In this document: positions 4,469 to 34,581 of the stretch, piece after piece
Numbering within the stretch: position 1 is the first letter of the stretch
Layout: each line of letters starts with the position of its first letter
From: Syntrophobacteraceae bacterium
GTDB taxonomy: Bacteria; Desulfobacterota; Syntrophobacteria; Syntrophobacterales; Syntrophobacteraceae
Direction: 5' to 3'
Assembly (NCBI GenBank): GCA_017881795.1
Contig: JADGQM010000004.1
Coordinates: 1-39,816 of the forward strand
Length of the DNA stretch: 39,816 bases
Position numbers and translations under genes: made by a program
The notes under the pieces: generated by a model
What the model was told of the DNA's origin: nothing
The model's input: only the letters and a program-made list of their open reading frames with translations
Database searches by the model: none

Positions 4469-4502
4469 CGTGATGAAAGCCTGCTAAGGAGACCCCACTG
4501 CA

Positions 4503-4682: not shown

Positions 4683-4701
4683 CAAGCCAAGGGTTTGACT
4701 G

Positions 4702-4980: not shown

Positions 4981-4985
4981 AGAGC

Positions 4986-5234
4986 ATGAAACAAAGCAGA
5001 TTCCCCAAAGGCTGGGATGAAGATCGAGTAAGGAGAGTTCTCGCCCACTATGAGAGCCAATCAGAAGAGGAAGCTATGGCAGAAGACGAAGCAGCATGGG
5101 AGGATCGTTCACAGACATTCATGGAGATTCCCAATGATCTAATACCTACCGTACGTGAACTACTTGCAAAGAGGGCGGAAAAGGCAGCGAGCAAGACAGC
5201 TCACAAAAACACCGAAGGAATAACCAGCCAATGA
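4986..5234 (+). CDS. Putative antitoxin partner of the BrnT/DUF4258-like protein
   Basis: An 82-aa protein starting at ATG 4986, five bases after the previous stop, with GAGGAAGG eight bases upstream. A GTG at 4977 would overlap the upstream gene and is the alternative start. It opens FPKGWDEDRVRRVLAHYESQ, followed by an acidic stretch (SEEEAMAEDEAAWEDR) and EIPNDLIPTVRELLAKR, which looks like a short helix-strand segment ahead of a C-terminal helix. The last 20 residues are Lys/Ala/Thr-rich and disordered-looking. I know similar small proteins next to DUF4258-like partners but cannot name a characterised antitoxin family. Confidence 0.55.
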   Translation: MKQSRFPKGWDEDRVRRVLAHYESQSEEEAMAEDEAAWEDRSQTFMEIPNDLIPTVRELLAKRAEKAASKTAHKNTEGITSQ

Positions 5235-5411
5235 GCCCGGCGAGCAACCACGGGGCAGGATCACCGGTTCTATCCGAAAGCGGTCAAGAGCCTGAAGTGA
5301 GGCGGCATGGCAATCAGCTTTGGATGAAAAGGTGCCACCAGCTTTTAACAGCGATGTCGGTTCGGTCATTCCAGGGGATGATTCAGAGGGCCCCATTTCG
5401 AGGAGAGGCCA

Positions 5412-6425: not shown

Positions 6426-6553
6426 CCTCACCTTTCATGATCACGTACTGTCACTAACTGCAAGCAGCGAAAAGATGGCTCATTCTCCGCACGCGTCAAA
6501 ACATTTGAATGAATATAATACTGACTGAGGGTCTGGTCGAGAACCTGTTGGCA

Positions 6554-7816
6554 CTATTCGAGCTCGATTCCATAGTGATCGGTGTAAAATCGAAAGCGGC
6601 GCCGTTCGGTTTCGCGATTCAGACCGTATGTTTCCAGAGAGTATCGATGCACACCGCTTTTGTGTTGGGGGTTTGCCGCCAGAAATCGCAGCATGGCACG
6701 CTCTGCTTCGTTCGTCAGCACCATTTCAAAATGGTCGTATATCCCTCGGACCACCGCCATCGGGTCTTTCACCAGGTCCGCATACCACACATCAAGAAAG
6801 CGTCCCTGCAAAGAGGCTCGGTCCTGGCGAAACTGGATGCCGAGACGAGCTCCCTTCTCCCAGCGTCGCGCCACTTCGTCGCCGAGCTCATCCCGGTCGA
6901 GGCACTCGGTGAAGGGCCCTCGCAGGACTTCGGCAAAACTTGCACAGGAGGCGAGGACTTTGAGGGGATCACGATGAGTCATGACAACCCCCGCATCGGG
7001 GTAGATCTGGAAGAGCGCTTTCAAGGCCAGTAAGTGACTGGGCGCCTTGAGCACCCAATGGGATCCAGGACACCGCCACTGCAAATGCTGGAGGAATTCT
7101 CGGTGAAATTCATAGGCCGGAAGTTTATCCCGGTCCTCATGCCAGATGCGATAGGAAGAGACGAAGTACATCGACTCGAAGACGTAACTCATAAAGGAGT
7201 GACCCATGATCGCGATGCACTCCTGGGGCAGTCGGGCATCGAGCAGATGGGCTGTCCTGAAGCCCGGCATCAGAACATCGACCCACTTCAACTCCTTGTC
7301 AGCCTGCGAGATGCGCGGGTCAGAGTCGCTGGTGGCCGTTTCGGGAGGGGGAGACGGATGCATTACCTCCCAGACTCTGGGCGCTCGACTGGCAGGATCC
7401 TGGGCGAGCAGGGCATGCAAGAGCGTCGAGCCAGTTCTTGGAAGACCCGTGATGAAGAGGGGACGCCTGATCATTTCGTCGGCAATTGCCGGGTTACGTT
7501 TGCGATCTTCCTCCAGACGCAGACGATTACTCAACACCCGCAGGATGTCACTATACACGCAGATTCGCCCAATGAAATTAAGGTGTGCATCATGTTTGAA
7601 CGAGTGGAGCAGGATTCCAAGCCGTTCAAAAAGCAAGTCATCGCCAAAATCATCAAGACCGGTTTGTCTGCGGGCTTTGTCGATGAGGGCGCTTTCATCC
7701 AGGGTCAGCAGGGAAAAACCATCCTCGGGGAACAATCCGCCCAGGGCATTCACCGCTCTCAACAGCTTCCAACGCTTGCTATGATGAGGTGCGAGGCGCC
7801 TCGCACTTTCGCTCAT
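6554..7816 (-). CDS. PAPS-dependent sulfotransferase family protein
   Basis: A 420-aa protein of the Sulfotransfer_3 type that would move a sulfuryl group from PAPS to an alcohol or amine acceptor. The 5'-phosphosulfate-binding loop FITGLPRTGSTLLH is at about residues 122-135. The 3'-phosphate-binding segment is probably VMTHRDPLKVLASCASF, about residue 280. I chose ATG 7816 because AGGAGGT sits nine bases upstream; the ATG at 7837 overlaps that site and cannot use it. The acceptor is unknown. Its nearest downstream neighbour is an HpnL-like flippase, which suggests a lipid. The by-product PAP can be removed by the CysQ and NrnA proteins encoded elsewhere in this window. Confidence 0.85.
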   Translation of the reverse strand: MSESARRLAPHHSKRWKLLRAVNALGGLFPEDGFSLLTLDESALIDKARRQTGLDDFGDDLLFERLGILLHSFKHDAHLNFIGRICVYSDILRVLSNRLRLEEDRKRNPAIADEMIRRPLFITGLPRTGSTLLHALLAQDPASRAPRVWEVMHPSPPPETATSDSDPRISQADKELKWVDVLMPGFRTAHLLDARLPQECIAIMGHSFMSYVFESMYFVSSYRIWHEDRDKLPAYEFHREFLQHLQWRCPGSHWVLKAPSHLLALKALFQIYPDAGVVMTHRDPLKVLASCASFAEVLRGPFTECLDRDELGDEVARRWEKGARLGIQFRQDRASLQGRFLDVWYADLVKDPMAVVRGIYDHFEMVLTNEAERAMLRFLAANPQHKSGVHRYSLETYGLNRETERRRFRFYTDHYGIELE

Positions 7817-7906
7817 TTCCTTAAGACCTCCTGCCATTTTTTTCCTGAGTCATCAACTGGTTGAAGTTCGCGCCAAGCCCGGAGAAGGTCACCCCCGCGC
7901 AAGCCG

Positions 7907-7934
7907 GTAGGGGCGACCAGCCGGTCGCCCCTAC
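7907..7934. repeat. GTAGGGGCGACC palindrome
   Basis: Arms 7907-7918 and 7923-7934 are perfect 12-bp reverse complements around an AGCC loop. This GTAGGGGCGACC/GGTCGCCCCTAC element is a widespread extragenic palindrome. No T-run follows on either side, so a terminator role is doubtful. Confidence 0.8.
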
Positions 7935-8035
7935 TGAAGAAACCGGATAATAGCCTTCGCAGGAATGATGTCAATGGACTTTTGCATGAGGCGCCGTTCC
8001 AATGGGTGATGTCCAAAATAGACTTCTTCTTTTAC

Positions 8036-8091
8036 CACGAAGCTCACGAAGAAAACGAAGGACACGAAGTGTTTTCTTCGTGAGCTTCGTG
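8036..8091. repeat. CACGAAG/CTTCGTG inverted-repeat element, copy A
   Basis: Left arm 8036-8056 and right arm 8071-8091 are perfect 21-base reverse complements around a 14-base loop that itself holds GGACACGAAG. Related elements occur at 19258-19325 and 29098-29182. The element lies between the sulfotransferase gene and the tRNA and has no coding potential. Confidence 0.85.
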
Positions 8092-8253
8092 TCCTTCATG
8101 GTTGGTAAATAGGTCATGATATGAGAGCAAGTTATTTTTGGACGGACCCAAACGCCGACCATTTCTCTGTTACGTCAAGAATCAACGGTTCTTCCCAAGG
8201 CAGGATTCGCCTTTGGGGCTTGACTCAAACGCACATCTAACAACAAATTGGAC

Positions 8254-8283
8254 TTGACTTCCCTCCCTGGGATCGTTTAGTGT
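8254..8283 (+). promoter_or_regulatory. Candidate promoter for tRNA-Gly
   Basis: A -35 TTGACT at 8254-8259 is followed after 18 bases by TAGTGT at 8278-8283, a weak -10. The mature tRNA begins 24 bases downstream, a suitable distance for a short 5' precursor. The -35 is convincing, the -10 less so. Confidence 0.4.
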
Positions 8284-8306
8284 TCGAGAGATTAAAAGGC
8301 TTCCGA

Positions 8307-8382
8307 GCGGGTGTAGCTCAGTTGGTAGAGCACAAGCTTCCCAAGCTTGGGGTCGCGGGTTCGAATCCCGTTGCCCGCTCCA
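8307..8382 (+). tRNA. tRNA-Gly (anticodon CCC)
   Basis: A 76-base cloverleaf including an encoded CCA end. The acceptor arms are GCGGGTG and TGCCCGC, with T as discriminator base. The D arm is GCTC...GAGC. The anticodon stem is CAAGC/GCTTG with loop TTCCCAA, giving anticodon CCC (codon GGG). The T arm is GCGGG TTCGAAT CCCGT. It stands just upstream of rimP-nusA-infB, a position analogous to metY before rimP in Escherichia coli. Confidence 0.95.
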
Positions 8383-8396
8383 GTCTGGAAGATGCT

Positions 8397-8423
8397 CCTT
8401 CTGTAAAGAAGGCTTCCCTTTTT
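8397..8423 (+). terminator. Weak hairpin after tRNA-Gly
   Basis: CCTTC 8397-8401 pairs with GAAGG 8408-8412, and a pyrimidine run ending in five Ts follows at 8413-8422. The stem is short and the T-run is six bases away, so this may be a 3' processing or weak termination signal rather than a strong terminator. Confidence 0.3.
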
Positions 8424-8433
8424 GAGGTGGCAG

Positions 8434-8462
8434 CCGGCCGGGTGTATGGGCAAAGGCCGGCG
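8434..8462 (+). other. Hairpin in the rimP leader
   Basis: GCCGGCC and GGCCGGC form a perfect 7-bp GC-only stem around a 15-base loop. It lies in the untranslated stretch between the tRNA and rimP. Together with the terminator at 8559-8584 it gives the leader a folded upstream part and a terminator downstream, the layout of an attenuator. No known riboswitch class was recognised. Confidence 0.35.
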
Positions 8463-8558
8463 ACTTCGATTAGTGGATGGCAGGACTATTAGATAGACTC
8501 TTATTACAAGAGAGCCCTGGTTAAGTCGGGCCTAAATAATTGTCGCGTCTACTAACAG

Positions 8559-8584
8559 AAGTGGGTATGTTACCCGCTTTTTTT
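8559..8584 (+). terminator. Intrinsic terminator or attenuator ahead of rimP
   Basis: GTGGGTA 8561-8567 and TACCCGC 8571-8577 pair around TGT, extended by A-T pairs, and a run of seven Ts (8578-8584) follows. This is a textbook rho-independent terminator. It ends about 40 bases before the rimP start. It could simply end the tRNA transcript, or it could be the decision point for read-through into rimP-nusA-infB. Confidence 0.75.
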
Positions 8585-8625
8585 GTTTATAAAGGTGTTA
8601 CTCAGGTGTTCGGAGCACCGTGCCC

Positions 8626-9114
8626 ATGGCTGAAGATGCGAATAAGACCACGCAACTTATCGCTGCGATCTGGCAATTGGTGGAATCGGTCATTCGCGCC
8701 GAAAGAATGGAACTGGTAGAGGTCGAATATCGCTGCGAACCCCATGGATGGGTGTTGCGTCTCTTTATTGACCAGGAGGATGGGATTACGGTGGATGATT
8801 GCGCTCGGGTAAGTCGGGTTGTGGGGGATCTCCTGGACGTCGCCGATCTCATTGCCAATCAATACCACCTCGAGGTTTCTTCTCCGGGGTTGAATCGGCC
8901 ACTGCGCAAGTGGGAGCATTTTCAAGGACATTTAGGAAGCATCGTCGACGTACGAGCCAGTACGTCCATTAATAACCGGCGCAAATTCAAGGGAAAACTG
9001 ATCGATGCCGGACCTGAAGGAATCACCGTTGACTGTGATGGTCACCTTTTCGACATCCCATTTAACCTTCTGGAACGGGCTCGGTTGCGTTACTTTGAAT
9101 CTCTGAACCTCTAG
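8626..9114 (+). CDS. rimP: Ribosome maturation factor RimP
   Basis: Needed for 30S subunit maturation. The 162-aa protein shows the family pattern: ELVEVEYRCEPHGWVLRLFID near residues 28-48, ITVDDCARVSRVVGDLLD after it, then HLEVSSPGLNRPLRK, the hallmark motif, and a C-terminal SH3-like domain (KFKGKLIDAGPEGITV). ATG 8626 lies 10 bases after GGAG; GTG 8620 lies four bases after the same site and is an alternative. First gene of the rimP-nusA-ylxR-infB set; the nusA start is 68 bases after its stop. Confidence 0.93.
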   Translation: MAEDANKTTQLIAAIWQLVESVIRAERMELVEVEYRCEPHGWVLRLFIDQEDGITVDDCARVSRVVGDLLDVADLIANQYHLEVSSPGLNRPLRKWEHFQGHLGSIVDVRASTSINNRRKFKGKLIDAGPEGITVDCDGHLFDIPFNLLERARLRYFESLNL

Positions 9115-9182
9115 AATATTGCACAAGCTGGTTATTTCCATGCGCCAGGTCTGTCTGGTAACAGACGAGGAGATCGAGAATC

Positions 9183-10550
9183 ATGAATGGTGAACTCAAG
9201 CGTTTGATCGATCAGGTCAGTCGGGAAAAAGGTATCGACCGGCAAACGTTGATTCACACCTTGGAAGAAGCCATTAAGTCGGCAATCAAGAAAAAATACG
9301 GCGGCAAACTCGACCTTGACGTAACCTTTAACGAAGAGTTCGGCGAAATCGAGGCCTTCCAGTTTAAGGAAGTCGTTGAGCTGGTGACGGACCCGGAAAA
9401 ACAGATCTCTCTGAAAGACGCTCGCCAGATGGACTCGGAAAGTGAGCTGGGCGATGAACTCGGCATCCGCATGGATACGGAAACCCTGGGACGTATTGCC
9501 GCCCAATCGGCCAAGCAGGTCATCATCCAGAAGATGAAGGATGCCGAGCGGGAAGTGGTATACGAAGAATTCAAAGGGCGGAAGGGCGATATCGTTCACG
9601 GCATCGTGCAGCGAGCGGACAAATCAGGGGTCGTTGTCAATTTGGGCCAAACCGAAGCGATCCTCCCCGCCAAAGAACAGATCCCGAGGGAGATCTTCCG
9701 GCAGGGAGACCGGATTCGCGCTTTCGTGTTGGAAGTGAAGAAGATCAGCAAGGGACCGCAAGTCATTCTCAGTCGAACCCACCCCCACTTCCTGATCCAG
9801 TTGTTCCACTTTGAAGTGCCGGAAATCGGGGACGGCGTTGTCAGCGTTATCAATGCCGCACGGGAACCCGGTTCGCGAGCGAAGATCGCGGTCGTTTCGA
9901 GGAACCCGGACGTGGATCCGGTGGGCGCCTGCGTAGGCATGAAAGGATCCCGCGTCCAGAATGTGGTCCAGGAACTGCGGGGTGAAAAAATCGATATCGT
10001 TCCCTGGAACATGGATCCGGCCAAATTTGTGGTGAATGCTCTGGCTCCGGCCATTATTTCCAAAGTTATCATCGACCAGGCCAATCGCAACATGGAAGTG
10101 ATCGTCCCCGACGATCAGCTCTCCCTGGCTATCGGGAAACGGGGGCAGAACGTCCGCCTGGCCTCCAAGCTTACAAACTGGCGGATTGATGTGAAGAGCG
10201 AAAGTCGCTACAACCGCCAAAAGCAAGCTGGCTACCAGTCCTTATTGCGTCTCCAAGGGCTGACCGAGGAGATGGCTGACCGTCTCTACGACGCCGGCGT
10301 CACTTCGCTGGAAGAATTTGCTGACGCAAGCCTGACGGAACTGGAGGACGTGACTCACGTTTCTCAGTCAGCTCTTGAGACTATGGTTGAGGAAGCCAGA
10401 CATCTGCTCGTTCGGGAAGCAACTGCAGCAGCAAGGGAGGCGGAGGACGCAGCGGAGCTCCCGGCAGACCAGGATGAAGTTCCCGATCAGTTGAATCCTG
10501 AGGATCAGGCCCCGGAAGAACATCTTTCAGGAGATGAAATTGGAGCCTAG
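9183..10550 (+). CDS. nusA: Transcription termination/antitermination factor NusA
   Basis: Binds RNA polymerase and nascent RNA to control pausing, termination and antitermination. The 455-aa protein has the N-terminal polymerase-binding domain (about 1-125), an S1 domain (GDIVHGIVQRADKSGVVVN, about 135-200), two KH domains (VGACVGMKGSRVQNV and LAIGKRGQNVRLASK), a helix-hairpin repeat (GLTEEMADRLYDAGVTSLEE) and an acidic tail. The start has GAGGAGA upstream. Its last 17 bases overlap ylxR. In many bacteria NusA represses its own operon, which would fit the terminator in the rimP leader; here that is inference. Confidence 0.96.
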   Translation: MNGELKRLIDQVSREKGIDRQTLIHTLEEAIKSAIKKKYGGKLDLDVTFNEEFGEIEAFQFKEVVELVTDPEKQISLKDARQMDSESELGDELGIRMDTETLGRIAAQSAKQVIIQKMKDAEREVVYEEFKGRKGDIVHGIVQRADKSGVVVNLGQTEAILPAKEQIPREIFRQGDRIRAFVLEVKKISKGPQVILSRTHPHFLIQLFHFEVPEIGDGVVSVINAAREPGSRAKIAVVSRNPDVDPVGACVGMKGSRVQNVVQELRGEKIDIVPWNMDPAKFVVNALAPAIISKVIIDQANRNMEVIVPDDQLSLAIGKRGQNVRLASKLTNWRIDVKSESRYNRQKQAGYQSLLRLQGLTEEMADRLYDAGVTSLEEFADASLTELEDVTHVSQSALETMVEEARHLLVREATAAAREAEDAAELPADQDEVPDQLNPEDQAPEEHLSGDEIGA

Positions 10551-10788
10551 AGCCCACGTACCCGTGCGCACGTGCCTGGTTTGCGGCAAAAAGAGTGCGA
10601 AGTTCGCGCTGCTGCGCGTCGCCCTCAGCCCTGTGGAGAGGACCGTCGTTCTGGATCGCAAGCAACGTCTGGAAGGACGTGGAGCTTATATATGTCAAGG
10701 CTGTTTGCCTAATCTGCGCTATACCAAACGAGTTCAGAGGGCTTTTCGCAATGAGGCGAAGGGGCTGGCAGAGAGCCTGGGCCGATAA
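10534..10788 (+). CDS. ylxR: YlxR (RnpM) family RNA-binding protein
   Basis: An 84-aa DUF448 protein. The diagnostic motif is PVRTCLVCGKK near the N-terminus, followed by the conserved GRGAYICQGCLPNL and a helical tail. Homologues bind RNA, and the Bacillus protein RnpM has been reported to modulate RNase P. The start codon lies inside the nusA end, directly after AGGAG, so its translation is probably coupled to nusA. The position between nusA and infB is the standard one for this family, which makes the call firm despite the short length. Confidence 0.9.
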   Translation: MKLEPRAHVPVRTCLVCGKKSAKFALLRVALSPVERTVVLDRKQRLEGRGAYICQGCLPNLRYTKRVQRAFRNEAKGLAESLGR

Positions 10789-10889
10789 TCCTGGTCCCTT
10801 CCCCACCTGTGGGGCTTTGTGGATGCCAGGGACGGCAGCGCGACTAAGTTGGAGGCGACATGGTAGAGAAAGATAAGGGAGAAGTTTTA

Positions 10890-13796
10890 ATGTCGCGCAT
10901 GAGGGTGCACGAACTTGCAAGAGAATTGAAAATGAACAACAAGGATCTGATTGAGCGGCTCCAGAAGTTGGGGATTCAGGTCAAGAACCACATGAGCACT
11001 TTGACTGAATTGACCGTGCAAAAGGTTCGGCAGCAGTTTGCTGAGGCAAGGACGGAGATGATCGAAGAAAAGCGCATCACCAGGGGAGTTATTCGCAGGC
11101 GCAAACGGGTTACGGAGGAAGAAGTGGGGCCCCTGGCAGCTACGCCCGAAGAAAGTATGGAGCCCCCTCTCGCTGCCGAAATGGAATCCGTTCAACCCTT
11201 GTCGAAGGTTGAGGCGGGACTTGCCTCCCCGGAACCTGAAGCAGAGCCCATTGCCCCCTCGCCGCTTCGTGAACGGCCGCCGGAAAGTGTCGAAGGAATC
11301 AAACCTGAAAGTGCTCTCGAGACCGCTCTTTCTTCGGAAGCAGCGGTGATTGAACCCTCTCCTGCCATTATCCCACAAGCTGACCTGGCGTCCGTCACCC
11401 TCGAGAGCCCAGGTCTTCCAGCGGAAAAGGAAGCTCCCAGCGCACCGATCACGATTGAACACCCGGAAGAACATAAGGTCGAAGCACGCGATCTGAAAAC
11501 CCAAGCAGAATTGAGCCCTGCACCCATCCCCCAAGCGGCTCCCAGCGCCCCAGTTCAAGCAACGGGGGCACCTTTGGAAGCCGTTCCTGTAATTCCTGCG
11601 GAGGGGGTTGAAGAAGAGGAAGAAGCGGATAAAGGAAAACCGAAGAAGGCAAAGAAGCGGCGGCGAAAAAAGGTCCGTAAAGACGAGCCCGCCCGCATCA
11701 TCAGCCTTCCTGAACTGATCCTCGAGGAAGAAGTGGAAGAGGAGCCGGAGCCTCTCCCTATCGCGGCGCGGTTGCAGGTCAAAGCCGAAGAGCCCGATCT
11801 CAAGGAACTTGCGCGCAAACGAAAGCCGAAAGCGGAAGAATTCGAACGTGAGGCAGCCGACAAGAAACGGCGATCGGTGGGGCGCAAGGAAGTTTTCGAA
11901 CGCGAAGATCTCTATTCCAAGAAGGAACTGGCCGCTCAGGCAGATCGCGGCCGCCTCAAAGGCAGAGAAAAACTTCCCCTGCTTCGGGAGATGTCCAAAC
12001 CCGAACTGGCTGTACCCAAGGTCGGTAAGCGCCGCGTAAGGATTGATGAGGCGATCACGGTGGCCAACCTGGCCCATCAAATGGGAGTCAAGGCGGCTGA
12101 GGTGCTGAAAAAACTGCTGCTTCTGGGACTGCCCTCAAATATCAATCAGGCCATGGATTTTGATACCGCAGCACTGCTCGCTTCGGAATTTGATTTCGAA
12201 GTGGAGAAAGTTGGTTTTGAGGAGGAAGAAATTTTACAGATTCAAGAAGACCGCCTTGAGGACATGGTGCTGAGACCACCTGTGGTGACGGTGATGGGCC
12301 ACGTCGATCATGGCAAGACTTCCTTGCTCGATGCCATCCGGGACACGAAAGTGATCGAAGGAGAAGCGGGCGGCATTACGCAGCATATCGGAGCCCACTA
12401 CGTTAGACTCAAGAATGGCGACGTGGTGTTCCTCGACACACCGGGGCACGAAGCCTTCACCTCGATGCGCGCCCGCGGCGCCAAGGTCACCGATATCGTC
12501 GTGCTGGTGGTCGCGGCCGAAGACGGCGTGATGCAGCAGACCATTGAGGCTATCAACCATGCCAAAGCCGGGAATGTACCCATTATTGTGGCCATTAACA
12601 AAATCGACAAACCCAACGCCAATATCGACCGCGTCAAGCGAGAACTTGCGGAACAGGGCCTGATCCCTGAGGAATGGGGCGGAGACGTCGCCATGGTCGG
12701 CATTTCGGCCAAGGAACGCGTGGGTATTGACGAACTTTTGGAGCTCATTCTGCTGCAAGCCGAAATCATGGAGCTCAAGGCCAGTTCCAACAAGCCCGCT
12801 CGCGGCCGCGTGATTGAAGCCAAACTGGATAAGGGTCGCGGGCCGGTAGCGACAATCCTGGTTCAAGAAGGGACGCTCAAAACGGGAGATATTTACGTCT
12901 GCGGCGCGCACTCCGGCCGGGTGCGAAACCTTTTTAACGACGTGGGACAAAAACTTGATGAGGCCGGACCCTCGACACCGGTCGAGGTCCTGGGGTTTTC
13001 GGGCGTGCCGAATGCCGGGGACGATTTCGTTGTCATAACTGACGATAAACAGGCCAAAATGGTCGCCGAACACCGTCTCGTGAAGCTCCGTGAAAAGGAG
13101 CTCTCGCGCAGCACCAAAGTCAGCCTGGAAAATCTTTACGACCAGATCAAAGAAGGGGAAATCAAAGAGCTCCCGATAATCCTCAAGACCGATGTCCACG
13201 GTTCTCAGGAAGCGATCAGCGACTCCCTGCTGAAACTCTCCACCCAGGAAGTGAAGATTAATCTCATCCACAACGCCACAGGAGCGATTACGGAAACCGA
13301 TGTCATGCTGGCTTCCGCATCCAAAGCGATCATTATCGGCTTTAACGTGCGCGCGGATGCGAAGGTTCAGGAACTCGCCGAACAGGAACACGTAGACGTG
13401 CGGTACTATGACATCATCTATCAGCTCCTGAACGACATCAAGGACGCCATGGTGGGGATGCTTGAACCGGTCTATCAGGAGAGTGTCCTCGGGAGAGCGG
13501 AGGTACGCCAGACTTTTCATGTCCCCAAGATCGGGATGATTGCAGGTTGTCAGGTTCTGGACGGACGCATTGAACGCGGAGCGCGAGTAAGGGTCCTGCG
13601 GGATCAGGTTGTTGTGAACGACGGGAAGATCGGTTCTCTGCGCCGTTTTAAAGACGATGTGAAGGAAGTCAAAGCGGGCTTCGAATGTGGCATCGGCATA
13701 GAGAATTTCAATGACATTAAGGTCAATGACATCCTCGAAGCTTACGAGCTCAAAGAAGTCAAGCCCGTTCTTGAGAGCGATGGCGAGCGTAAATAG
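10890..13796 (+). CDS. infB: Translation initiation factor IF-2
   Basis: GTPase that places initiator tRNA on the ribosome. From ATG 10890 the protein is 968 aa. It has an IF2_N domain at the start ([22 protein letters not shown]), then a long Glu/Pro/Ala and Lys-rich linker (about 70-370), a second IF2_N-like segment ([22 protein letters not shown]), and the G domain with GHVDHGKTS at about 470, DTPGHEAF at about 515 and NKIDKPNA at about 569, followed by domains II-IV. ATG 10860 is in frame with its own GGAGG and would add ten residues. I prefer 10890, with AGGGAG eight bases upstream, because it matches the family N-terminus; both could be used. Confidence 0.96.
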
Positions 13797-13808
13797 GGCA
13801 GTGATTAT

Positions 13809-13899
13809 GGTTGATGGTTGATGGTTGATGGTTGATGGGTAGCGATAAGGGTTTAGTGTTAAGAGCTGAAAGCTGACAGCTAAGAGCCAAGTGGTTATG
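13809..13899 (+). repeat. Heptamer-period array between infB and ylxP
   Basis: Thirteen consecutive 7-base units can be laid in one unbroken register. Four exact GGTTGAT units (13809-13836) are followed by drifting units GGGTAGC, GATAAGG, GTTTAGT, GTTAAGA, GCTGAAA, GCTGACA, GCTAAGA and GCCAAGT, and finally GGTTATG at 13893-13899. Every unit starts with G. The last unit contains the ATG proposed for ylxP. The array fills almost the whole gap after the infB stop. Confidence 0.85.
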
Positions 13900-14223
13900 A
13901 CGGTCGGAATTGCGCGAATCCAATTTAGACTCCATGGCAACCAATCCCTTAAGGACAAACGTAAGGTGGTTAAAAGCCTTATCGAAAAGTGCCGCAATCG
14001 TTTCAACGTGGCGGTGGCAGAAGTTGAGGATCAGGATCTACACCAACGAGCGACGCTGGGTATCGCCGTCATTGGGAGCGACGGTCGTATCCTCAATTCG
14101 GTCCTGGACCGCGTCGTCGATTTCATGGATTCCCTCAATCTGGCTGAACTCGTGGGCCATGAAATGGAATTGATTCCCCTCGGCGGTGGCTCCGATCATG
14201 TCGTTGGCGCTCACCAAGCATGA
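13897..14223 (+). CDS. ylxP: DUF503 family protein YlxP
   Basis: A 108-aa protein of the YlxP/DUF503 family. The hallmark N-terminus is present: a short beta strand, then GNQSLKDKRKVVKSLIEKCRNRFNVAVAEV. The C-terminal half (HQRATLGIAVIGSDGRILNSVLDRVVDFMD) is also typical. The molecular role is unsettled; the gene is conserved between infB and rbfA, which suggests a part in ribosome or translation biology. ATG 13897 lies within the last unit of a heptamer array and has only a weak ribosome site; GTG 13891 is the alternative start. Confidence 0.88.
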   Translation: MTVGIARIQFRLHGNQSLKDKRKVVKSLIEKCRNRFNVAVAEVEDQDLHQRATLGIAVIGSDGRILNSVLDRVVDFMDSLNLAELVGHEMELIPLGGGSDHVVGAHQA

Positions 14224-14256
14224 CAAACGGCATCGACTCTTCTTGTGGCACCTTCT

Positions 14257-14291
14257 CTGATCACTGGTCACTGACCACTGATCGCTGCTTT
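14257..14291 (+). repeat. Heptamer-period array between ylxP and rbfA
   Basis: Units CTGATCA, CTGGTCA, CTGACCA, CTGATCG and CTGCTTT run in register from 14257. The first four differ by one or two bases. The array lies about 15 bases before the rbfA start and just upstream of its GAGGGA ribosome site. Confidence 0.75.
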
Positions 14292-14305
14292 CGAGGGACG
14301 CGATA

Positions 14306-14665
14306 ATGATCACCGCGTACAAGAGGTGTGATCGCATAGCGGATTTGCTGCAGCGGGAAATTGCCGACCTGCTGCTGCGTCGGGTGAAGGATCCCCGAAT
14401 TGAGGGAGTGACCATCACGGGCATTAAGGTCTCAGGAGATTTGCAGCACGCCCGAGTATTTTATTGCGTCATGGGTTCCCCGAGGAATGAAGGAAAGGAG
14501 GCCGTTGCCACCGGCCTGGAAAAGGCGAAGGGATTCATGCGCCAGGAATTGGGTAAACGCCTTCATATGAGGTATGTTCCTCAGCTCGAATTTGTTTATG
14601 ATGCTTCGTTTGACTATGGTGATAGGATCGAGCGGTTGCTGAAAGAGTTACACCAGGATGAATAA
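14306..14665 (+). CDS. rbfA: 30S ribosome-binding factor RbfA
   Basis: Assists late 30S assembly and 16S rRNA 5'-end processing. The 119-aa protein has the usual length and motifs: RIADLLQREIADLLLRRVKDPRI at the start, then VTITGIKVSGDLQHARVFY, and the C-terminal RYVPQLEFVYDASFDYGDRIERLL. GAGGGA lies seven bases before the ATG. Its last eight bases overlap nrnA. Confidence 0.95.
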   Translation: MITAYKRCDRIADLLQREIADLLLRRVKDPRIEGVTITGIKVSGDLQHARVFYCVMGSPRNEGKEAVATGLEKAKGFMRQELGKRLHMRYVPQLEFVYDASFDYGDRIERLLKELHQDE

Positions 14666-15656
14666 TCCACAGCATGATGTCATTCAGGAAATCGGTGCAT
14701 CGATCCAACTCAGTCAACGTTTCCTCGTTGCCACTCACGTCCGGCCTGACGGCGATGCCATCGGTTCGGTCCTCTCCATGACGCACCTGCTTCACCGTCT
14801 GGGAAAGAAGGCTGATCCCTATTGTCAGGACCCGGTGCCAACGGCTTACCGATTCCTGCCCGGGGTAGGGTTAATTGGCGCTCGCGTGCTCGAGCCGGCG
14901 CATTATGACGTGGCCATTCTCGTCGATTGCGGAGACTTTCTCCGAGTGGGAACGGGGCTGGCGGAATCCATCGGGCGGGTGCCAGTTCTAATCAGCATCG
15001 ATCATCACATCGCCCACGCCTCTTTTGGGAATATCTACTGGAGTAATACGTCGGCCAGCAGTGCCTGCGAGATGCTTTATGACTTGTGCCTTAGTCTTCC
15101 TATTGCCATCGACGCCGACCTGGCGACCACACTTTACACCGGACTGCTTGCCGATTCCGGCTCCTTCCGGTTTTCCAACACCAATCAGCGTGTCCTTGAG
15201 ATGGCAGCGAATCTGGTGGCTGCCGGCGCCGATCCGGCCTTCATTGCCGAACAGGTGTACGATTCGGCTTCGGTGGAAAGCCTCCGTCTGCTGGCAATGG
15301 TCCTTGCCAATATCTCTTTCCACGCCGGTGATCGCCTGGCCACCGCTGAACTGAGCCTGAAAATGTTTGCCGAAACCGCAGCTTCGCCCGCGGATGCCGA
15401 AGGCTTCATCAATTTTTTGCGCTCGGTAAAAACGGTCGAGATGGCGATGCTCTTTCGGGAGGGAACGGAAGGCAAAATAAATGTCAGCATGCGTTCCAAG
15501 GGCAAAGTGGATGTGGCGAGCTTTGCGCAGAGGCAAGGCGGAGGAGGACACCGGCATGCGGCAGCCTTTGAAATCTCGGGAACCTTACCGGCGATCCGCT
15601 CTCGCTTTACCCAGGAAGCTCTGACATACCTCGAGCGCATGATATGGAAAACGTGA
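14658..15656 (+). CDS. nrnA: NrnA-type DHH phosphoesterase (nanoRNase/PAP phosphatase)
   Basis: A bifunctional enzyme family that degrades very short RNAs and hydrolyses 3'-phosphoadenosine 5'-phosphate. The 332-aa protein shows VRPDGDAIGS (motif I, about residue 27), LVDCGD (motif II), SIDHHIAHASFG (the DHH motif) and GLLADSGSFRFSNT, and ends with the DHHA1 signature GGGGHRHAAAFE. Manganese-binding residues all appear present. It overlaps rbfA by eight bases and truB by one. PAP hydrolysis links it to the sulfotransferase and CysQ in the same window. Confidence 0.93.
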   Translation: MNNPQHDVIQEIGASIQLSQRFLVATHVRPDGDAIGSVLSMTHLLHRLGKKADPYCQDPVPTAYRFLPGVGLIGARVLEPAHYDVAILVDCGDFLRVGTGLAESIGRVPVLISIDHHIAHASFGNIYWSNTSASSACEMLYDLCLSLPIAIDADLATTLYTGLLADSGSFRFSNTNQRVLEMAANLVAAGADPAFIAEQVYDSASVESLRLLAMVLANISFHAGDRLATAELSLKMFAETAASPADAEGFINFLRSVKTVEMAMLFREGTEGKINVSMRSKGKVDVASFAQRQGGGGHRHAAAFEISGTLPAIRSRFTQEALTYLERMIWKT

Positions 15657-17086: not shown

Positions 17087-19198
17087 ATGGAAGCAGCCAT
17101 GAAACACACAGTGCAAGTAGAGGTGGGTGGACGTCCGCTGACCATCGAATGCGGCCATGTTGCCCAACAGGCCAGCGGTGCAGTTTTAATGCGATATGGT
17201 GACACCGTGGTTTTGGTCACCGCAACCAAAGAGGACCGGACCCGGGAAGGCATTGATTTTCTGCCCCTCATGGTCGATTATCAGGAAATGGGCTACGCTG
17301 CGGGCCACATCCCCGGCAGCTTTTTCCGACGGGAAGTTGGTCGCCCCAGCGAGAAGGAAACGCTGACCTCGCGCCTGATCGACCGTCCCATCCGCCCGCT
17401 CTTTCCCAAAGGATACGCGCTGGAAACGCAGGTCATCGCCACCGTGCTCTCCGTCGATCAGGAAAATGAACCTGATGTCGTCGCTATGACCGGCGCCTCA
17501 GCAGCTTTGCATATTTCCCGCATCCCGTTTCAGGGGCCCATCGCCGCGGTTCGCGTCGGCCGCTTAAACGGCGAGTTCATCATCAATCCCAGCCTGAAAC
17601 AGCTGGCGGAGAGCGACATGAACGTGGTCGTCGCGGGGAGCCGGGATGCCGTGGTGATGGTGGAAGGCGGTGCAAAGTTCGTTTCCGAAGATGATCTCGT
17701 CGAAGCCATCGATACCGCTCATCGAGCCATTTTGCCCATCCTCGACGCTCAGGAAGAGCTCAGGAAAATGATCGGAGCCGTCAAAGACGCTCCTCCTGAG
17801 ATCATAGAATATGCCGGGCTGATCGAAGCGCTGAAGAAGACCGCGGCCGAAGAGATGAGACAGGTTGTCACGACGCCGGAGAAATTACTCCGTCGCGACC
17901 GGAAGAAAGCGTTGAAGCAGCGCGTGGCGGAAGAGCTTTCGGTCGAATTTCCGGAACAGGGGAAAGAGATCAAGGGCCTTCTCGAAGATCTTGAAAAAGA
18001 GACGGTGCGGCGCCTGATGGTTGAGGAAAACCGACGCATCGATGGTCGCCGTTTTGATGAGATCCGCCCCATCACCATTGAAGTGGGCATCCTCCCCAGG
18101 ACGCACGGCTCGGCGATGTTCCGTCGCGGCGAGACCCAGGTGCTCGCCGTGGTCACCCTCGGGTCCTCGTCCGATGAACAGAAGATCGAAACCCTGGCGG
18201 GCGAAACGTTCAAATCCTTCATGCTCCATTATAATTTTCCTCCCTTCTCGGTCGGCGAGGTGCGGCCGCTGCGAGGGCCGGGGCGTCGGGACATCGGTCA
18301 TGGGGCTCTTGCTGAACGCACCGTGAAAACCGCCCTGCCCAAAGATGGTGAATTCCCGTACACGATTCGGGTCGTCTCGGAAGTCCTGGAATCCAACGGC
18401 TCCAGTTCTATGGCCACCGTCTGCGGAGCTACCCTGGCGCTCATGGACGCCGGCGTCCCGCTGACCGACACCTTGGCCGGAGTGGCCATGGGTTTGATCA
18501 AAGAAGGCAGCGAAGTGGTCATTCTCTCTGACATCCTGGGGGATGAAGACCACTTTGGCGATATGGATTTCAAGGTTACGGGCAGCGAGAAGGGGATTAC
18601 TGCCCTGCAGATGGATATCAAGATTTCCGGAATCGACCGGGAAATCATGCGCCGCGCCCTGGAACAGGCCCGAAAAGGCCGCATCCATATCCTCGAAAAA
18701 ATGCGCGAAGCTCTGTCTACACCCCGATCGGAGCTCTCTCCCTACGCGCCACGAGTCGTCAGCTTACAGATCAACCCGGACAAAATCCGCGATGTCATCG
18801 GGCCGGGAGGCAAGGTGATCCGCGCCATCGTAGCGGAAACCGGAGCCAAGATCGATGTCGATGACACCGGCCGCGTGGTGGTTATGAGCCCGGATCAGGC
18901 GGCTTGTGACAAAGCCATCAACAAGATCAAAAGCTTGACTCAAGAACCTGAAGTTGGCCAGCTTTACATGGCCAAAGTGGTGCGCGTCACGGATTTCGGG
19001 GCCTTCGCGGAAATCCTGCCGAATATCGACGGCCTGATCCACATTTCGCAATTGGATCACACGCGGGTGCGCAAAGTCACCGACGTCGTCAACGAAGGCG
19101 ATGAGGTGCTCGTCAAAGTCATCGAAATCGACAAAGACGGCCGTATCCGGTTAAGCCGCAAGGCTGCCATGGAAAAGCCGGGAGACAGTAGGGAGTAG
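17087..19198 (+). CDS. pnp: Polyribonucleotide nucleotidyltransferase (PNPase)
   Basis: 3'-5' phosphorolytic RNase and degradosome component. The 703-aa protein has two RNase PH domains ([22 protein letters not shown] in the first; the catalytic Asp pair in [11 protein letters not shown] at about 483-493 in the second), a KH domain ([12 protein letters not shown], about 565) and an S1 domain ([19 protein letters not shown], about 640). ATG 17087 is three bases from GGAGG; ATG 17099 is an alternative. Its stop codon lies inside two GTAGGGA heptamers, so the final residues DSRE are encoded by repeat sequence. Confidence 0.96.
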
Positions 19199-19201
19199 GG
19201 A
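19188..19201 (+). repeat. Two GTAGGGA heptamers spanning the pnp stop codon
   Basis: GTAGGGA occurs exactly twice in tandem, and the second copy contains the TAG stop of pnp (19196-19198). It is a minimal member of the heptamer-array family found elsewhere in the window. Confidence 0.55.
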
Positions 19202-19257
19202 GCCTCTCTATTCTTGTCCATGCTGATGTCTGGATGGAAGCGTCGAAGAAGCCCAGA

Positions 19258-19325
19258 CACGAAAGGCACGAAGGACTTTTACAGCGTTTATGAATACTCT
19301 TTCGTGCTCTTCGTGTTTTTCGTGG
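19258..19325. repeat. CACGAAG/CTTCGTG inverted-repeat element, copy B
   Basis: The left side holds CACGAAAGGCACGAAGG and the right side TTTCGTGCTCTTCGTG then TTTTTCGTGG, so CACGAA-type words face each other across an AT-richer centre. It is less perfect than copy A (8036-8091). It lies in the pnp to M16-peptidase gap; the rest of that gap shows nothing else. Confidence 0.75.
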
Positions 19326-22462: not shown

Positions 22463-24166
22463 ATGATCCGACTCAAGGTCTTCATCAGTTCCGTGCAAAA
22501 GGAGCTCCAGGAGGAGCGAGCGGCTCTGGGGGGCCTGCTGGCGACCGACCCGTTCCTCGCCTCCAGTACCGTTCCCCGGCTGTTCGAGGAGTATCCCGCC
22601 CCGCTCAGGCCGAACAAACAGGCCTATCTCGACCTCCTGCGCAGTTGCCATGTCTGCCTTTTGATCATGGGGAAAGAGTACGGTCAGCCCCTGGCCGACG
22701 GCCTGTCGGCCACGCATCAGGAATATCGCCTTGCACAGAGCTTAAAACTTCCGACGTTGGTCTGTGTGAAAGGCGACGCTGGATTTGAGCGTGACGAGAA
22801 GGAAAAAGCATTCCTCGCGGAAGTGCGGCATGATGGCCACACCTATAGCCGCTTTGCAACTCGGGATGAGCTTCTCAAGAAGGCTCGATTGCGACTGATC
22901 GAGTACCTCGAAAAGACTTTTGAAGCGGGGCCTACCCCACAACAAAACGAGCAGGCGCGGGAGACTCTAAGGTGTGCGTCGGATTTCGAACGGCAACGAG
23001 CTCACAGCCTGTCTTCAGGTGAACTCGATCCCGGCCTGGTCAGAGAACTGGTGGCTGCCGCCGAGGACAGGCCTCCCGACAAGCTCAATGACGAGATGAT
23101 CACCCAGGCACTGGTTTCACGCGGCTACCTCTGGTTTGACCCCGGAGACAACCAGTATCGTCCGACCGCCGCCGCCGTGTTGCTCATGGCAAAGTCCCCA
23201 TCCAAAGCGTTTCCCCAGGCGCGTGTTCAACTGGATGCCTACGTGGGTGAGACACGTGACGCCCGGCCCCTTGACAGCATCCTCGTGGATAAACCGCTGC
23301 CGGCGGCCATTGAGCAGGCAGTGGCCTTCATCCGGCGGAATACGGCCCAACCCCTGAAGGTTGAAGGCTTGCGTCGGGTGAGTGCCGAGGTCTTCCCCCA
23401 GGAAGCCCTCCGGGAGGCCATCGTCAATGCCGTTGCCCATCGCGACTACGAGGCTGCAGGGGTGAAGATCACCGTGGAGGTTTTCGCCGACCGTGTGGTC
23501 TTTTCAAGTCCCGGTCCGCCGCCAGGCAATCAGAAAATCGAGCGCATCGGGCGGGGAGAAGGGCGCTCCAAGGCGCGCAATCCCCTTGTTGTCCAGGGAT
23601 TGACCTGGCTCGAACTGATGGATGAGCGCGGCAGCGGCATTCGTCGCATGCGGGAGGTTATGCATCGGCATGGCCTCGAGATGCCTCGGTTCGCAGTGGT
23701 CGACGATGAGTTCACGGTCACGCTCACAACACAACCCAAGTTTGTCGAAACTGATCGAGTGGCTGTTGGACTATTGCCCGGTGAACCCTATTCCCCATAC
23801 CCGGAGCTGACAGAAAACCAAAATGCCGCTTTGACGGGCGCGGCTGAAAGGGGCTACCTCTCCACCGCATGGTGCGTTCAGAACCTCGGCCTGTCCAGGG
23901 ACACGGCCTGGCGGATGCTTGATGATTTGAAGGAGAGGGGCTACCTGGAAAAGATCGGTGCCGGACGAGCCACACGGTATGTCCTCAAGATTCACCCACC
24001 TGACGTGGATGCGCAGGAGCGTCAGGCGCAAATCAGGCGCAAATCAGGCGCAGATCAGGCGCAAATCGGGCGAAAGGCGCCAGCCGATCAGGCACAAACC
24101 GGAAGCAAGAGCAAACCCTCTGGCGCAATTCTGACGAAATCAGGCGAAAAACCAACGAAGAAATGA
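22463..24166 (+). CDS. DUF4062 + GHKL-type ATPase + winged-helix protein
   Basis: A 567-aa protein with an unusual domain order. Residues 1-115 are DUF4062-like (LKVFISSVQKELQEERAAL, then LLRSCHVCLLIMGKEYG and SATHQEYRLAQ). Residues about 170-430 match the RecG-C-like GHKL ATPase region (EALREAIVNAVAHRDY as the N-box, DRVVFSSPGPPPG, and DERGSGIRRMREVM). Residues 445-515 look like a winged helix (LGLSRDTAWRMLDDLKERGYLEKIGAGR). A basic Gln-rich tail follows, encoded partly by an 11-base tandem repeat. In the usual relatives the ATPase is preceded by an AlbA_2/Schlafen-like domain; here DUF4062 takes that place. It may be a regulator or a stand-alone defence gene; neither is shown. GGAAGGG precedes the ATG. 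Confidence 0.85.
   Translation: MIRLKVFISSVQKELQEERAALGGLLATDPFLASSTVPRLFEEYPAPLRPNKQAYLDLLRSCHVCLLIMGKEYGQPLADGLSATHQEYRLAQSLKLPTLVCVKGDAGFERDEKEKAFLAEVRHDGHTYSRFATRDELLKKARLRLIEYLEKTFEAGPTPQQNEQARETLRCASDFERQRAHSLSSGELDPGLVRELVAAAEDRPPDKLNDEMITQALVSRGYLWFDPGDNQYRPTAAAVLLMAKSPSKAFPQARVQLDAYVGETRDARPLDSILVDKPLPAAIEQAVAFIRRNTAQPLKVEGLRRVSAEVFPQEALREAIVNAVAHRDYEAAGVKITVEVFADRVVFSSPGPPPGNQKIERIGRGEGRSKARNPLVVQGLTWLELMDERGSGIRRMREVMHRHGLEMPRFAVVDDEFTVTLTTQPKFVETDRVAVGLLPGEPYSPYPELTENQNAALTGAAERGYLSTAWCVQNLGLSRDTAWRMLDDLKERGYLEKIGAGRATRYVLKIHPPDVDAQERQAQIRRKSGADQAQIGRKAPADQAQTGSKSKPSGAILTKSGEKPTKK
24023..24066 (+). repeat. Four 11-base tandem repeats inside the DUF4062 gene
   Basis: CAGGCGCAAAT occurs at 24023-24033, 24034-24044, 24045-24055 (one change, A to G) and 24056-24066. 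Because 11 is not a multiple of three, gain or loss of one unit would shift the frame and replace the last 30 or so residues of the protein. The encoded segment is Gln/Lys/Arg-rich. Confidence 0.85.
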
Positions 24167-25465: not shown

Positions 25466-25509
25466 GCCGCTTATCCCTCACAATCCCGTTGAATTAGTTT
25501 TTCGCCTTG

Positions 25510-25579
25510 TTATTTGTTATCCGTTATCCGTTATTTGTCACTGAGACTGATAACTGGTCACTGATAACTGATCACTTTC
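25510..25579. repeat. Heptamer-period array between secD and secF
   Basis: Ten 7-base units in one register on the plus strand: TTATTTG, TTATCCG, TTATCCG, TTATTTG, TCACTGA, GACTGAT, AACTGGT, CACTGAT, AACTGAT, CACTTTC. The first four and the last six belong to two different word types, yet the 7-base step is kept across the change. It occupies most of the gap between the two genes. Confidence 0.85.
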
Positions 25580-29097: not shown

Positions 29098-29182
29098 CCA
29101 CGAAGGACTCGAAGAGCACGAAGTATTTTCTCAATAAATTCTATCCCTTCGTGGCCTTCGTGCGTTCTTCGTGATCTTCATG
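29098..29182. repeat. CACGAAG/CTTCGTG inverted-repeat element, copy C
   Basis: The left half (CCACGAAGGACTCGAAGAG then CACGAAG) and the right half (CTTCGTGGCCTTCGTGCG then TTCTTCGTG) face each other across an AT-rich centre. It is the third copy of the family in this window and lies just before the methyltransferase gene. Confidence 0.75.
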
Positions 29183-29220: not shown

Positions 29221-30162
29221 TTGAAAAGCCATGTTACAGATTTCCTGATTTGTCCCGCGTGTCTACCGAAAGAAATGAGGCTGACTCTGGATGTGCGTGA
29301 AAGTCATGGGATTGAAGTGATCAGCGGTGTCTTGAAATGCCCACAATGCCTCAGCAACTATGCGATTGTCGGAGGCATCGCAAACCTTGACCCGCAGCAA
29401 CGAGATCTGACCGCGGAAACCAAGTCAAAATATGAAGAATCCGAGGTGGTTTCATCTTATCTCTGGAGCCATTACGCCGATCTTTTCGGTGATGAGGAAG
29501 TCACCGGGGCTTACCCCGAGTGGGCCGAACAGATTGTGACCGAGACCGGTTTTGCCCTGGATGCCGGCTGTGCCGTGGGTCGCTTCACCTTTGAGTTAAG
29601 TCGAAAATTCGATTTTGCCGTGGGGATCGATTCCTCCCGGAGTTTCATTGCGCAGGCACGGAAACTGCTCTTGGAGCGCCGGTTGGATTTTAACTTGAAA
29701 CGCGAGGGTAACCTTCGGGAAAAGCGAGCCATAAAGCTTCCTGAAAGCTGGGACGAGACCAAGGTCGAATACATCGTGGCCGATGCTCAGGCCCTTCCCT
29801 TTCGCAGCCATTGCTTTTCCTGTGTGGCCTCGCTCAACCTGGTGGACAAGCTGCCAAAACCCCTTCTCCATCTAAAAGAAATGAGCCGGGCAGCGATGCG
29901 TACTGGAGCTCAACTCCTATTTTCTGACCCCTTTTCCTGGTCTGTTGCGTATACCCAAGAAGAAGACTGGCTGGGAGGGAGGGATTCCGGAGCCTACGCC
30001 GGGGAAGGACTGGATAATGTGCAAGCTATTTTGGAAGGTGAAGCCAGTGAAATAGATCCCCCGTGGACCATCGAGAATCGGGGTGAAGTCTGGTGGAAGA
30101 TCCGGAACCATCGTCACCACTTCGAGCTGATCCGGAGCTGTTTTATCAAAGCGGTGCGTTAG
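29221..30162 (+). CDS. Zinc-ribbon methyltransferase resembling the OvoA C-terminal domain
   Basis: A 313-aa SAM-dependent methyltransferase. I choose TTG 29221 as start because GGAGG lies six bases upstream; an upstream in-frame TTG at 29191 lacks this. An N-terminal Trm112-like ribbon (ICPAC ... CPQC) precedes the Rossmann domain: ALDAGCAVGRFTFELSRKFDFAVGIDSS (motif I), YIVADAQALPF and SCVASLNLVDKLPKPLLHL. The GCAVGR signature, DPFSWSVAYTQEEDWLGG and the ending WWKIRNHRHHFE resemble the 4-mercaptohistidine methyltransferase part of ovothiol synthase OvoA, as I recall it. No sulfoxide synthase domain lies nearby, so the substrate is open. Confidence 0.78.
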   Translation: MKSHVTDFLICPACLPKEMRLTLDVRESHGIEVISGVLKCPQCLSNYAIVGGIANLDPQQRDLTAETKSKYEESEVVSSYLWSHYADLFGDEEVTGAYPEWAEQIVTETGFALDAGCAVGRFTFELSRKFDFAVGIDSSRSFIAQARKLLLERRLDFNLKREGNLREKRAIKLPESWDETKVEYIVADAQALPFRSHCFSCVASLNLVDKLPKPLLHLKEMSRAAMRTGAQLLFSDPFSWSVAYTQEEDWLGGRDSGAYAGEGLDNVQAILEGEASEIDPPWTIENRGEVWWKIRNHRHHFELIRSCFIKAVR

Positions 30163-30190
30163 TTGATGGTTGATGGTTGATGGTTGATGG
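30163..30190 (+). repeat. Four TTGATGG heptamers between the methyltransferase gene and cysQ
   Basis: TTGATGG occurs four times in exact tandem, starting on the base after the methyltransferase stop codon. The same cyclic unit, GGTTGAT, forms the core of the array at 13809-13836. The cysQ ribosome site (GGGGAG) follows a few bases after the array. Confidence 0.85.
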
Positions 30191-30209
30191 TAGAGGGGAG
30201 TTGTTGGTT

Positions 30210-31977: not shown

Positions 31978-31987
31978 TCGGTTTCTC

Positions 31988-32022
31988 TTCACCCTTCACT
32001 TTTCACCTTTCACTCTTCACTA
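31988..32022. repeat. Heptamer-period array between icd and comF
   Basis: Five units on the plus strand: TTCACCC, TTCACTT, TTCACCT, TTCACTC, TTCACTA. The last unit contains the icd stop codon (minus strand, 32020-32022). Read on the minus strand the array is purine-rich (GTGAA words) and runs up to the comF ribosome site. Confidence 0.85.
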
Positions 32023-34139: not shown

Positions 34140-34160
34140 GGGCGCCTTGATTGAAAGAAA

Positions 34161-34195
34161 GTGATCAGTGACTAGTGGCTAGTGGCTAGTGGTCG
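34161..34195. repeat. Heptamer-period array upstream of prmA
   Basis: Units GTGATCA, GTGACTA, GTGGCTA, GTGGCTA and GTGGTCG run in register. They begin about 20 bases upstream of the prmA start codon, where its promoter or leader should be. Confidence 0.8.
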
Positions 34196-34462
34196 GAGAA
34201 TGGTGCTCCACTGGCTTCCATGCGCTATTTCATGCTTTGTGGCACCGCCCCCAGAATGAAAATTGCCGACCCAAAAAGCATGATGAGTGACTTCCCAAAA
34301 ATCCATACAGCATATTACTATACTCCGGCAGTTCTTGCCGGCAAATCACCAAAAACACCAAAGCCCGACAAAAGGATAGCCGGCAAGAAGTATTTCTGTC
34401 CATTTCACACGGCTGATCCGCTAGACTGTCATCCCGTGGCAACGCCGCGAAAAAGCGAAAAT

Positions 34463-34581
34463 GGTTATCCGTTACTGGTTAACCGTTACTGCTTAACCTT
34501 ACTGGTTATCGGTTACCGGCCCACTGGCCACTGATAGCTGATAGCTGATAACCGATAACCGATTAACGGGAACCGATTGGT
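34463..34581. repeat. Long heptamer-period array upstream of the sigma factor gene
   Basis: About 17 units in two register blocks. From 34463: GGTTATC, CGTTACT, GGTTAAC, CGTTACT, GCTTAAC. From 34505: GTTATCG, GTTACCG, GCCCACT, GGCCACT, GATAGCT (twice), GATAACC (twice), GATTAAC, GGGAACC, GATTGGT. A short unit around 34498-34504 joins the blocks. It is the longest array in the window and ends 15 bases before the sigma gene start. Confidence 0.85.

Follow-up and report, generated by a model that had tools for sequence, protein, structure and literature searches.

Degenerate heptanucleotide arrays at gene edges in a Syntrophobacteraceae genome

Arrays of the Window and Their Neighbour Genes

The window, that is, the whole stretch of 39,816 nucleotides of Syntrophobacteraceae DNA analysed here, encompasses infB, a DUF503 gene, rbfA, pnp, secF, secD and genes for a methyltransferase, an inositol-monophosphatase-family protein and an ECF sigma factor, all identified by Pfam, as well as icd and prmA, which were identified from their relatives. 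Gaps next to these genes contain tandem arrays with a 7-nt step that were located with TRF (Tandem Repeats Finder) at period 7 or 14 and with a tolerant lag-7 score. The preliminary description had listed at least eight intergenic sites with such a step, and this count holds: TRF detects a period-7/14 array at each of the eight, seven of which are solid and one, at 19188, marginal. Two further members, at 13848-13891 and 25546-25576, lie beyond these sites. The arrays are the following.

13807-13838, plus strand: perfect array (ATGGTTG)4.6, 10 nt past the infB stop codon (13796); TRF, infB by Pfam
13848-13891, plus strand: degenerate AGCTGAA/AGCTAAG/AGCCAAG array that fills the remainder of the infB-DUF503 gap; lag-7 score 12
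14254-14287, plus strand: CTGATCA/CTGGTCA array, 18 nt 5' of the rbfA ATG (14306); TRF at 14257-14287, RbfA by Pfam
19187-19202, plus strand: AGTAGGG, 2.3 copies, covering the pnp stop codon (19196-19198); TRF score 32
25507-25534, plus strand: GTTATCC/GTTATTT array (sense GATAACn), 5' of secF; TRF at 25507-25538, SecF by Pfam
25546-25576, plus strand: ACTGATAACTGGTCACTGATAACTGATCACT, of the TAACTGA type, 9 nt past the secD stop; TRF at 25538-25576 and lag-7 score
30162-30191, plus strand: (GTTGATG)4.3, beginning on the final base of the methyltransferase gene's TAG stop; TRF, Pfam
31985-32021, minus strand: CTTCACT/TTTCACC array (sense AGTGAAG) that overlaps the TAG stop of icd; TRF
34160-34192, plus strand: AGTGATC/AGTGACT/AGTGGCT array (sense CACTAGC), 20 nt 5' of prmA, a minus-strand gene; TRF at 34167-34192
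34462-34516, plus strand: GTTACTG/GTTAACC array with 7/14-nt period, one half of an inverted array 5' of the ECF sigma factor gene; TRF
34531-34563, plus strand: CTGATAG/CTGATAACC, the other arm of this inverted array, located 33 nt 5' of the ATG of the ECF sigma gene (34597); TRF, Pfam

The array at 19187-19202, with its 2.3 copies, is marginal, not convincing alone and compatible with chance. The array upstream of rbfA contains no start codons on the sense strand, and the one at 30162-30191 extends almost to the Shine-Dalgarno sequence of the inositol-monophosphatase-family gene. Inverted arrangements are found at two places: the array at 25546-25576 is inverted relative to the one at 25507-25534 (hairpin z -4.3), and the whole inverted array at 34462-34563 has a predicted fold of -44.1 kcal/mol (z -4.8). 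Because of their location inside the infB-rbfA and secD-secF gaps, arrays are very probably transcribed. A scan of the window with Rfam yields a tRNA only.

Other repeats are present in the window as well. Those of the form CACGAAGRN, with a 9-nt step and arranged in inverted pairs (8036-8100, 19258-19324 and 29099-29182; 12 matches vs 0.2 expected), also occur in the gaps of loci L239 and L246 and represent a separate dispersed element. A repeat of period 11/33 (TCAGGCGCAAA) at 24022-24102 lies in the 3'-terminal part of the gene spanning 22463-24166 and is probably a coding repeat.

The 7-Base Period in the Window and Across the Genome

Periodicity was assessed by counting exact lag-p runs with 10 or more matches against a Markov expectation, with genes called by a simple, uncurated dicodon model in which starts are less certain than stops. 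The intergenic DNA of the window (5.0 kb) contains six exact runs at lag 7, two at lag 14, one at lag 21 and none at any other tested lag; the Markov expectation is 0.0. A further 40 contigs of this genome, picked by number (311 kb, including 52 kb intergenic), show 11 intergenic and 2 genic runs at lag 7, with lag 8 as the runner-up (5 runs). The tolerant score gives 18 intergenic and 4 genic lag-7 segments in the same 311 kb, though intergenic DNA makes up 17% of this sample. Thus, the intergenic 7-base peak that the preliminary description had proposed to look for, separating genic from intergenic sequence, is present both in the window and elsewhere in the genome. Arrays number about 77 per Mb (27 in a random sample of 351 kb); the window, with 9 arrays in 39.8 kb, is about threefold richer than the genome average. 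There really are hundreds of 7-base arrays in the gaps of this genome. Lag 7 also ranks first in the intergenic DNA of 80 contigs taken from many phyla (22 vs at most 12 for other lags).

The site at 19188 fits chance by itself, but chance as the source of the whole set is refuted by the lag-7 run counts in the window and in the independent contigs, and the presence of such arrays in complete, single-contig relatives (G015 and G046) argues against an assembly artefact, so that the probability of either explanation is practically negligible.

The local abundance of arrays can be far greater. Locus L242, on contig C415 of this genome, carries 13 heptamer arrays in 15.9 kb (1273-15540); they occupy nearly all the gaps of an island whose short genes seem to resemble toxin-antitoxin and sugar-nucleotide genes.

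Unit Sequences

The units, compared as classes that include any rotation on either strand, are highly variable, with 48 classes. The earlier view that the arrays share a period and not a sequence stands in part: most pairs of arrays share no unit, and 75% of the inter-locus pairs in the random sample differ by at least 3 bases, but identical classes do recur, in 2.7% of the inter-locus pairs among the 27 random-sample arrays vs 0.12% in shuffled ones, i.e., 23 times more often. The units found repeatedly genome-wide are GGTTGAT, AACTGAT, GATTTCG, GAGCTAA and AGTGACT; AACTGAT, GGTTGAT, AGCTGAT and GGCTGAT are variants of a single RRYTGAT heptamer. Such variants are scattered over 46 of the phylum's 395 genomes; the preferred variant differs between genomes, and close relatives nearly lack them.

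Within arrays, one heptamer grades into another. The array of locus L049 drifts through AGTTGAT, AGTTAAT, GGTTAAA, GGCTAAA, GGCCAAG and CGCTAAG. Mismatches between adjacent units comprise 282 transitions and 195 transversions, and within-array identity declines from 0.82 at lag 7 to 0.75, 0.71 and 0.69 at lags 14, 21 and 28, respectively. The transition-rich drift together with the decay over distance is the trace expected of unit-by-unit duplication plus point mutation. Taken with the lack of relatedness between most pairs, these observations support the suggestion of the preliminary description that a common generating process acts on many units.

A conserved inverted sequence similar to gtgggcaggatggaaccctgcccaccctac (L135 8105-8266 and 9455-9923, L214 2067-2183, L232 10769-11102, L032 1259-1522) shares gaps with heptamer arrays and looks like a dispersed hairpin element.

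Placement and Orientation of the Arrays

The stop-codon anchoring and the strand rule described here are regularities beyond the claims of the preliminary description. Both were analysed in an enlarged sample of 814 kb with 109 arrays in complete gaps, which is not random because 464 kb are mostly contigs chosen for RRYTGAT or GTTATC arrays. The mean distance to the nearest gene edge is 38 nt vs 58 nt expected under uniform placement (P at most 0.0005 in both the random and the whole sample); no edge hugging is seen at control lags 8, 9, 10, 11, 13 and 16. Nearly half of the arrays closest to a stop codon (30 of 66) overlap or abut it, with the stop in or against the first unit, and in gaps of at least 150 bp where the nearest edge is a stop, 25 of the 38 arrays start within 15 nt of it. 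Arrays nearest to a start lie at a median distance of 34 nt, which leaves space for a ribosome-binding site, and their sense strands are depleted of start triplets (3 of 43 vs 8.1 expected, P=0.003). Gaps between divergent genes are poor in arrays (0.44 per kb vs about 1.1 elsewhere). Sense-strand stop codons in all frames were considered as a selected feature and rejected: their excess is significant only in the stop-overlapping arrays (24 of 30 vs 16.2 expected), where it is partly built in, and amounts to 19 of 36 vs 16.1 expected in the others.

The strand read outward from the nearest gene is G-rich in 80 arrays and C-rich in 24 (P 3e-8); restricted to the random sample, a table of side by skew yields P 0.03. 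At up to 10 nt from a stop, 41 arrays have a G-rich sense strand and 4 a C-rich one, vs 8 and 12, respectively, at greater distances; for the arrays located 1-10 nt past the stop, the ratio is 15:0. Upstream of starts, the ratio of G-rich to C-rich sense strands is reversed (8:31), and the C-rich bias continues beyond 80 nt (9:3, not significant). In the same vein, GTTGATn pairs at 3' edges are sense in 41 cases and never antisense, vs 6 sense and 12 antisense at 5' edges, with pairs from one array not being independent. Background skew is rejected as the source of the orientation, given that no such skew is present in array-free gaps; among the control lags, 8 and 16 also favor G-rich outward strands, but less strongly (16:5 and 13:3).

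Relatives and the icd-prmA Gap

Outside the genome of the window, the orientation rule is seen in G046, a relative that belongs to the same class but to a different family (11:0; its arrays lie a median of 4 nt from the gene edge). It is not seen in three other relatives with few arrays, namely G005, from the window's own family, G015 and G037, and in the 80 contigs from many phyla the ratio is 12:5, not significant. In G015, a member of the same family as the window, locus L190 contains long, near-perfect arrays of up to 187 nt (ATGGCTG, GAGCCAT/GAACCAT; 7330-7516, 7894-7992 and 17667-17813) that apparently are recent expansions.

The icd-prmA neighbourhood is conserved in nearly all of 29 relatives, and in nearly all members of the window's family the gap lacks arrays. 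Three genomes of genus g21, from another family, have AGAGCATAGGGCATAGGGCATGGGG, or a disrupted form of it, directly after the icd stop; in the window, the icd TAG is followed by TGAAGAGTGAAAGG, and icd ends at the same conserved residue in the window and in the g21 genomes. The icd arrays of the two families match in place and strand type but have unrelated units (AGTGAAG vs TAGGGCA). Within g21, the array is equally long in two species. In one of these three genomes (locus L028, 430-500), about 30 nt (CCTTCGACAGGCTCAGGACAAG...) are inserted within the icd heptamer array, which is otherwise kept in L027 and L029.

Origin and Maintenance of the Arrays

The arrays are best explained, with a probability of roughly 0.6, by slippage in 7-nt steps and point mutation, with selection near stop, start and ribosome-binding signals acting as a filter. 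A 7-nt stretch would be duplicated by replication slippage and lengthened by additional single-unit slips; a loop of 7 nt is too large for MutS-type repair. Point mutation would then diversify the units, so that one array could drift from heptamer to heptamer, and purifying selection would determine where arrays persist. Inside genes, arrays are expected to be selected against because a 7-nt change shifts the frame. Just past a stop codon, such a change would be harmless, and a duplication that includes the stop would leave the first stop in place. Before starts, the units retained would be those whose sense strand is free of ATG, GTG and TTG and of G-rich words resembling the Shine-Dalgarno sequence. 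Stop codons, start codons and the Shine-Dalgarno sequence all lack C, which could result in G-rich sense strands at stops and C-rich ones before starts. The recurrence of certain units might come from local recombination or from a small number of slippage-prone heptamers. A dedicated function would not be required.

The dominance of lag 7, the decay of identity, the excess of transitions, the edge hugging, the overlap with stops and the local nature of the orientation all count in favor of filtered slippage, and so do the depletion of start triplets, the lack of skew in array-free gaps and the icd arrays in two families. The persistence of the C-rich bias beyond 80 nt before starts, which is not significant, counts against it. 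Taken alone, slippage accounts neither for arrays beginning at the stop instead of at some other free position in the gap nor for the complete G-rich bias 1-10 nt past the stop, where the units are not significantly enriched in stop codons, and related units at distant loci are not predicted by slippage from local seeds. A function, or a birth process of the arrays that is linked to gene ends, is possible.

Were the arrays functional elements acting at the RNA level or by protein binding, they could be post-transcriptional sites ahead of starts and past stops, as envisaged by MacGregor for TAACTGA, or paired sites of a global regulator, as proposed for Geobacter metallireducens. The strict rules of side and strand, most conspicuous in the GTTGATn pairs, would fit such a role, as would the strong inverted structures of two window arrays and the probable transcription of those in the infB-rbfA and secD-secF gaps. 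Nevertheless, a functional origin seems doubtful considering the large number of unit classes, the array-free icd-prmA gaps of nearly all family members and the complete absence of RRYTGAT in related genomes. Moreover, gaps with arrays are no more structured than those without (mean z -0.6 vs -1.3), so that, the two window arrays excepted, a hairpin or terminator can be rejected as the general role. Some inverted pairs of arrays exist (25507/25546, 34462/34531, L211, L047 and L225) but are in no excess over shuffled pairs, and the left and the right array of a gap show no complementarity other than that implied by the orientation rule (P 0.51).

Spread of the units by copying, through a dispersed or mobile repeat or through seeding from other copies by recombination, would account for the recurrence of identical classes, for composite GGTTGAT...GAGCTAAGAGCC arrays in five gaps and for array-rich contigs such as L242. 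It is an unlikely source all the same, given that there is no constant core, terminal sequence or second conserved part, that most pairs share no unit and that two lineages carry different units at the same gene end; the composite itself behaves as a single heptamer array that drifts gradually. Highly improbable is a scheme of break repair, in which ends trimmed to the gene edge would be extended by a repeat-adding polymerase and rejoined so that arrays read outward from both genes: this could produce edge hugging, the outward G-rich orientation and the head-to-head arrays of some gaps, but complementary units are not enriched in two-array gaps, and we know of no bacterial precedent for 7-nt end addition.

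Beyond the preferred reading of filtered slippage, it can be tentatively suggested that heptamer arrays arise or persist specifically where translation terminates, independently of the unit, in unrelated lineages. If general, stop anchoring would be a simple, sequence-independent rule that is testable in any genome.

Comparison with Known Heptanucleotide Repeats

The STRR heptamers of cyanobacteria are tandem heptanucleotides with several unit types per genome. They resemble the arrays described here, which are tandem and multi-unit as well, but belong to another phylum, and the likeness is one of description only. The preliminary description called the arrays undescribed, with no matching family; this cannot be upheld because heptanucleotide arrays have already been described in bacteria (PMC4679880, PMC4692102, PMC2700814). 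The window arrays are heptanucleotide simple-sequence-repeat arrays, an already known kind: the 7-nt tandem units exceed chance, period 7 is dominant and the location is mainly non-coding. Repeats of this type form the most common long microsatellite of many bacteria. As the work of Mrazek 2007 is cited in PMC4679880, heptanucleotides are the commonest category of long repeats in most genomes, and slippage was proposed as their source. Going by the summaries in PMC4679880 and PMC4692102, the likeness covers the 7-nt units, the intergenic location, the prevalence over other unit lengths and the proposed slippage; the arrays described here differ in being degenerate, in mixing many units and in a placement at stops far stricter than these summaries state.

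The direct repeats of TAACTGA were reported in Beggiatoaceae, Cyanobacteria and Bacteroidetes (MacGregor 2015; PMC4679880). GATAACT/AACTGAT is a rotation of TAACTGA, and both are intergenic and often located just 5' of starts (PMC4679880); exact doubles are present in L220, L232 and L234, and a degenerate copy at 25546-25576. In the TAACTGA system (BOGUAY), related heptamers are rarely tandem (PMC4679880), whereas here related and unrelated heptamers alike repeat, GGTTGAT, AGTGACT and GAGCTAA among others, and arrays are more numerous at stop codons than at starts.

In Geobacter metallireducens, which belongs to the former Deltaproteobacteria like the host of the window, elements of four or five tandem heptanucleotides are of two kinds (GGACCGG and MTYCTGA), the second with sites on opposite strands (PMC2700814). 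The arrays are alike in being tandem heptanucleotides; the two consensus sequences have 0 and 1 matches, respectively, in the 250 loci analysed here.

In placement, the arrays parallel the GGGNATC/GGGGAYT repeats that Rehm et al. 2015 described from Xanthomonas and Nostoc, which occupy the sense strand past stops and the antisense strand ahead of starts and are rare between divergent ORFs (PMC4692102). The same rule applies here, with the G-rich strand being sense past stops and antisense before starts and with divergent gaps depleted, although no GGGNATC arrays, and hence no such G-tracts, were found in the loci examined. Because the rule is obeyed without G-tracts, no quadruplex is required to account for it. 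The combination of many units with strict orientation separates explanations bound to the unit, such as a quadruplex or one binding protein, from those bound to period and position. An origin anchored at stop codons, if true, would unite the reports from Beggiatoaceae, from Xanthomonas and Nostoc, and from Geobacter under one stop/start rule.
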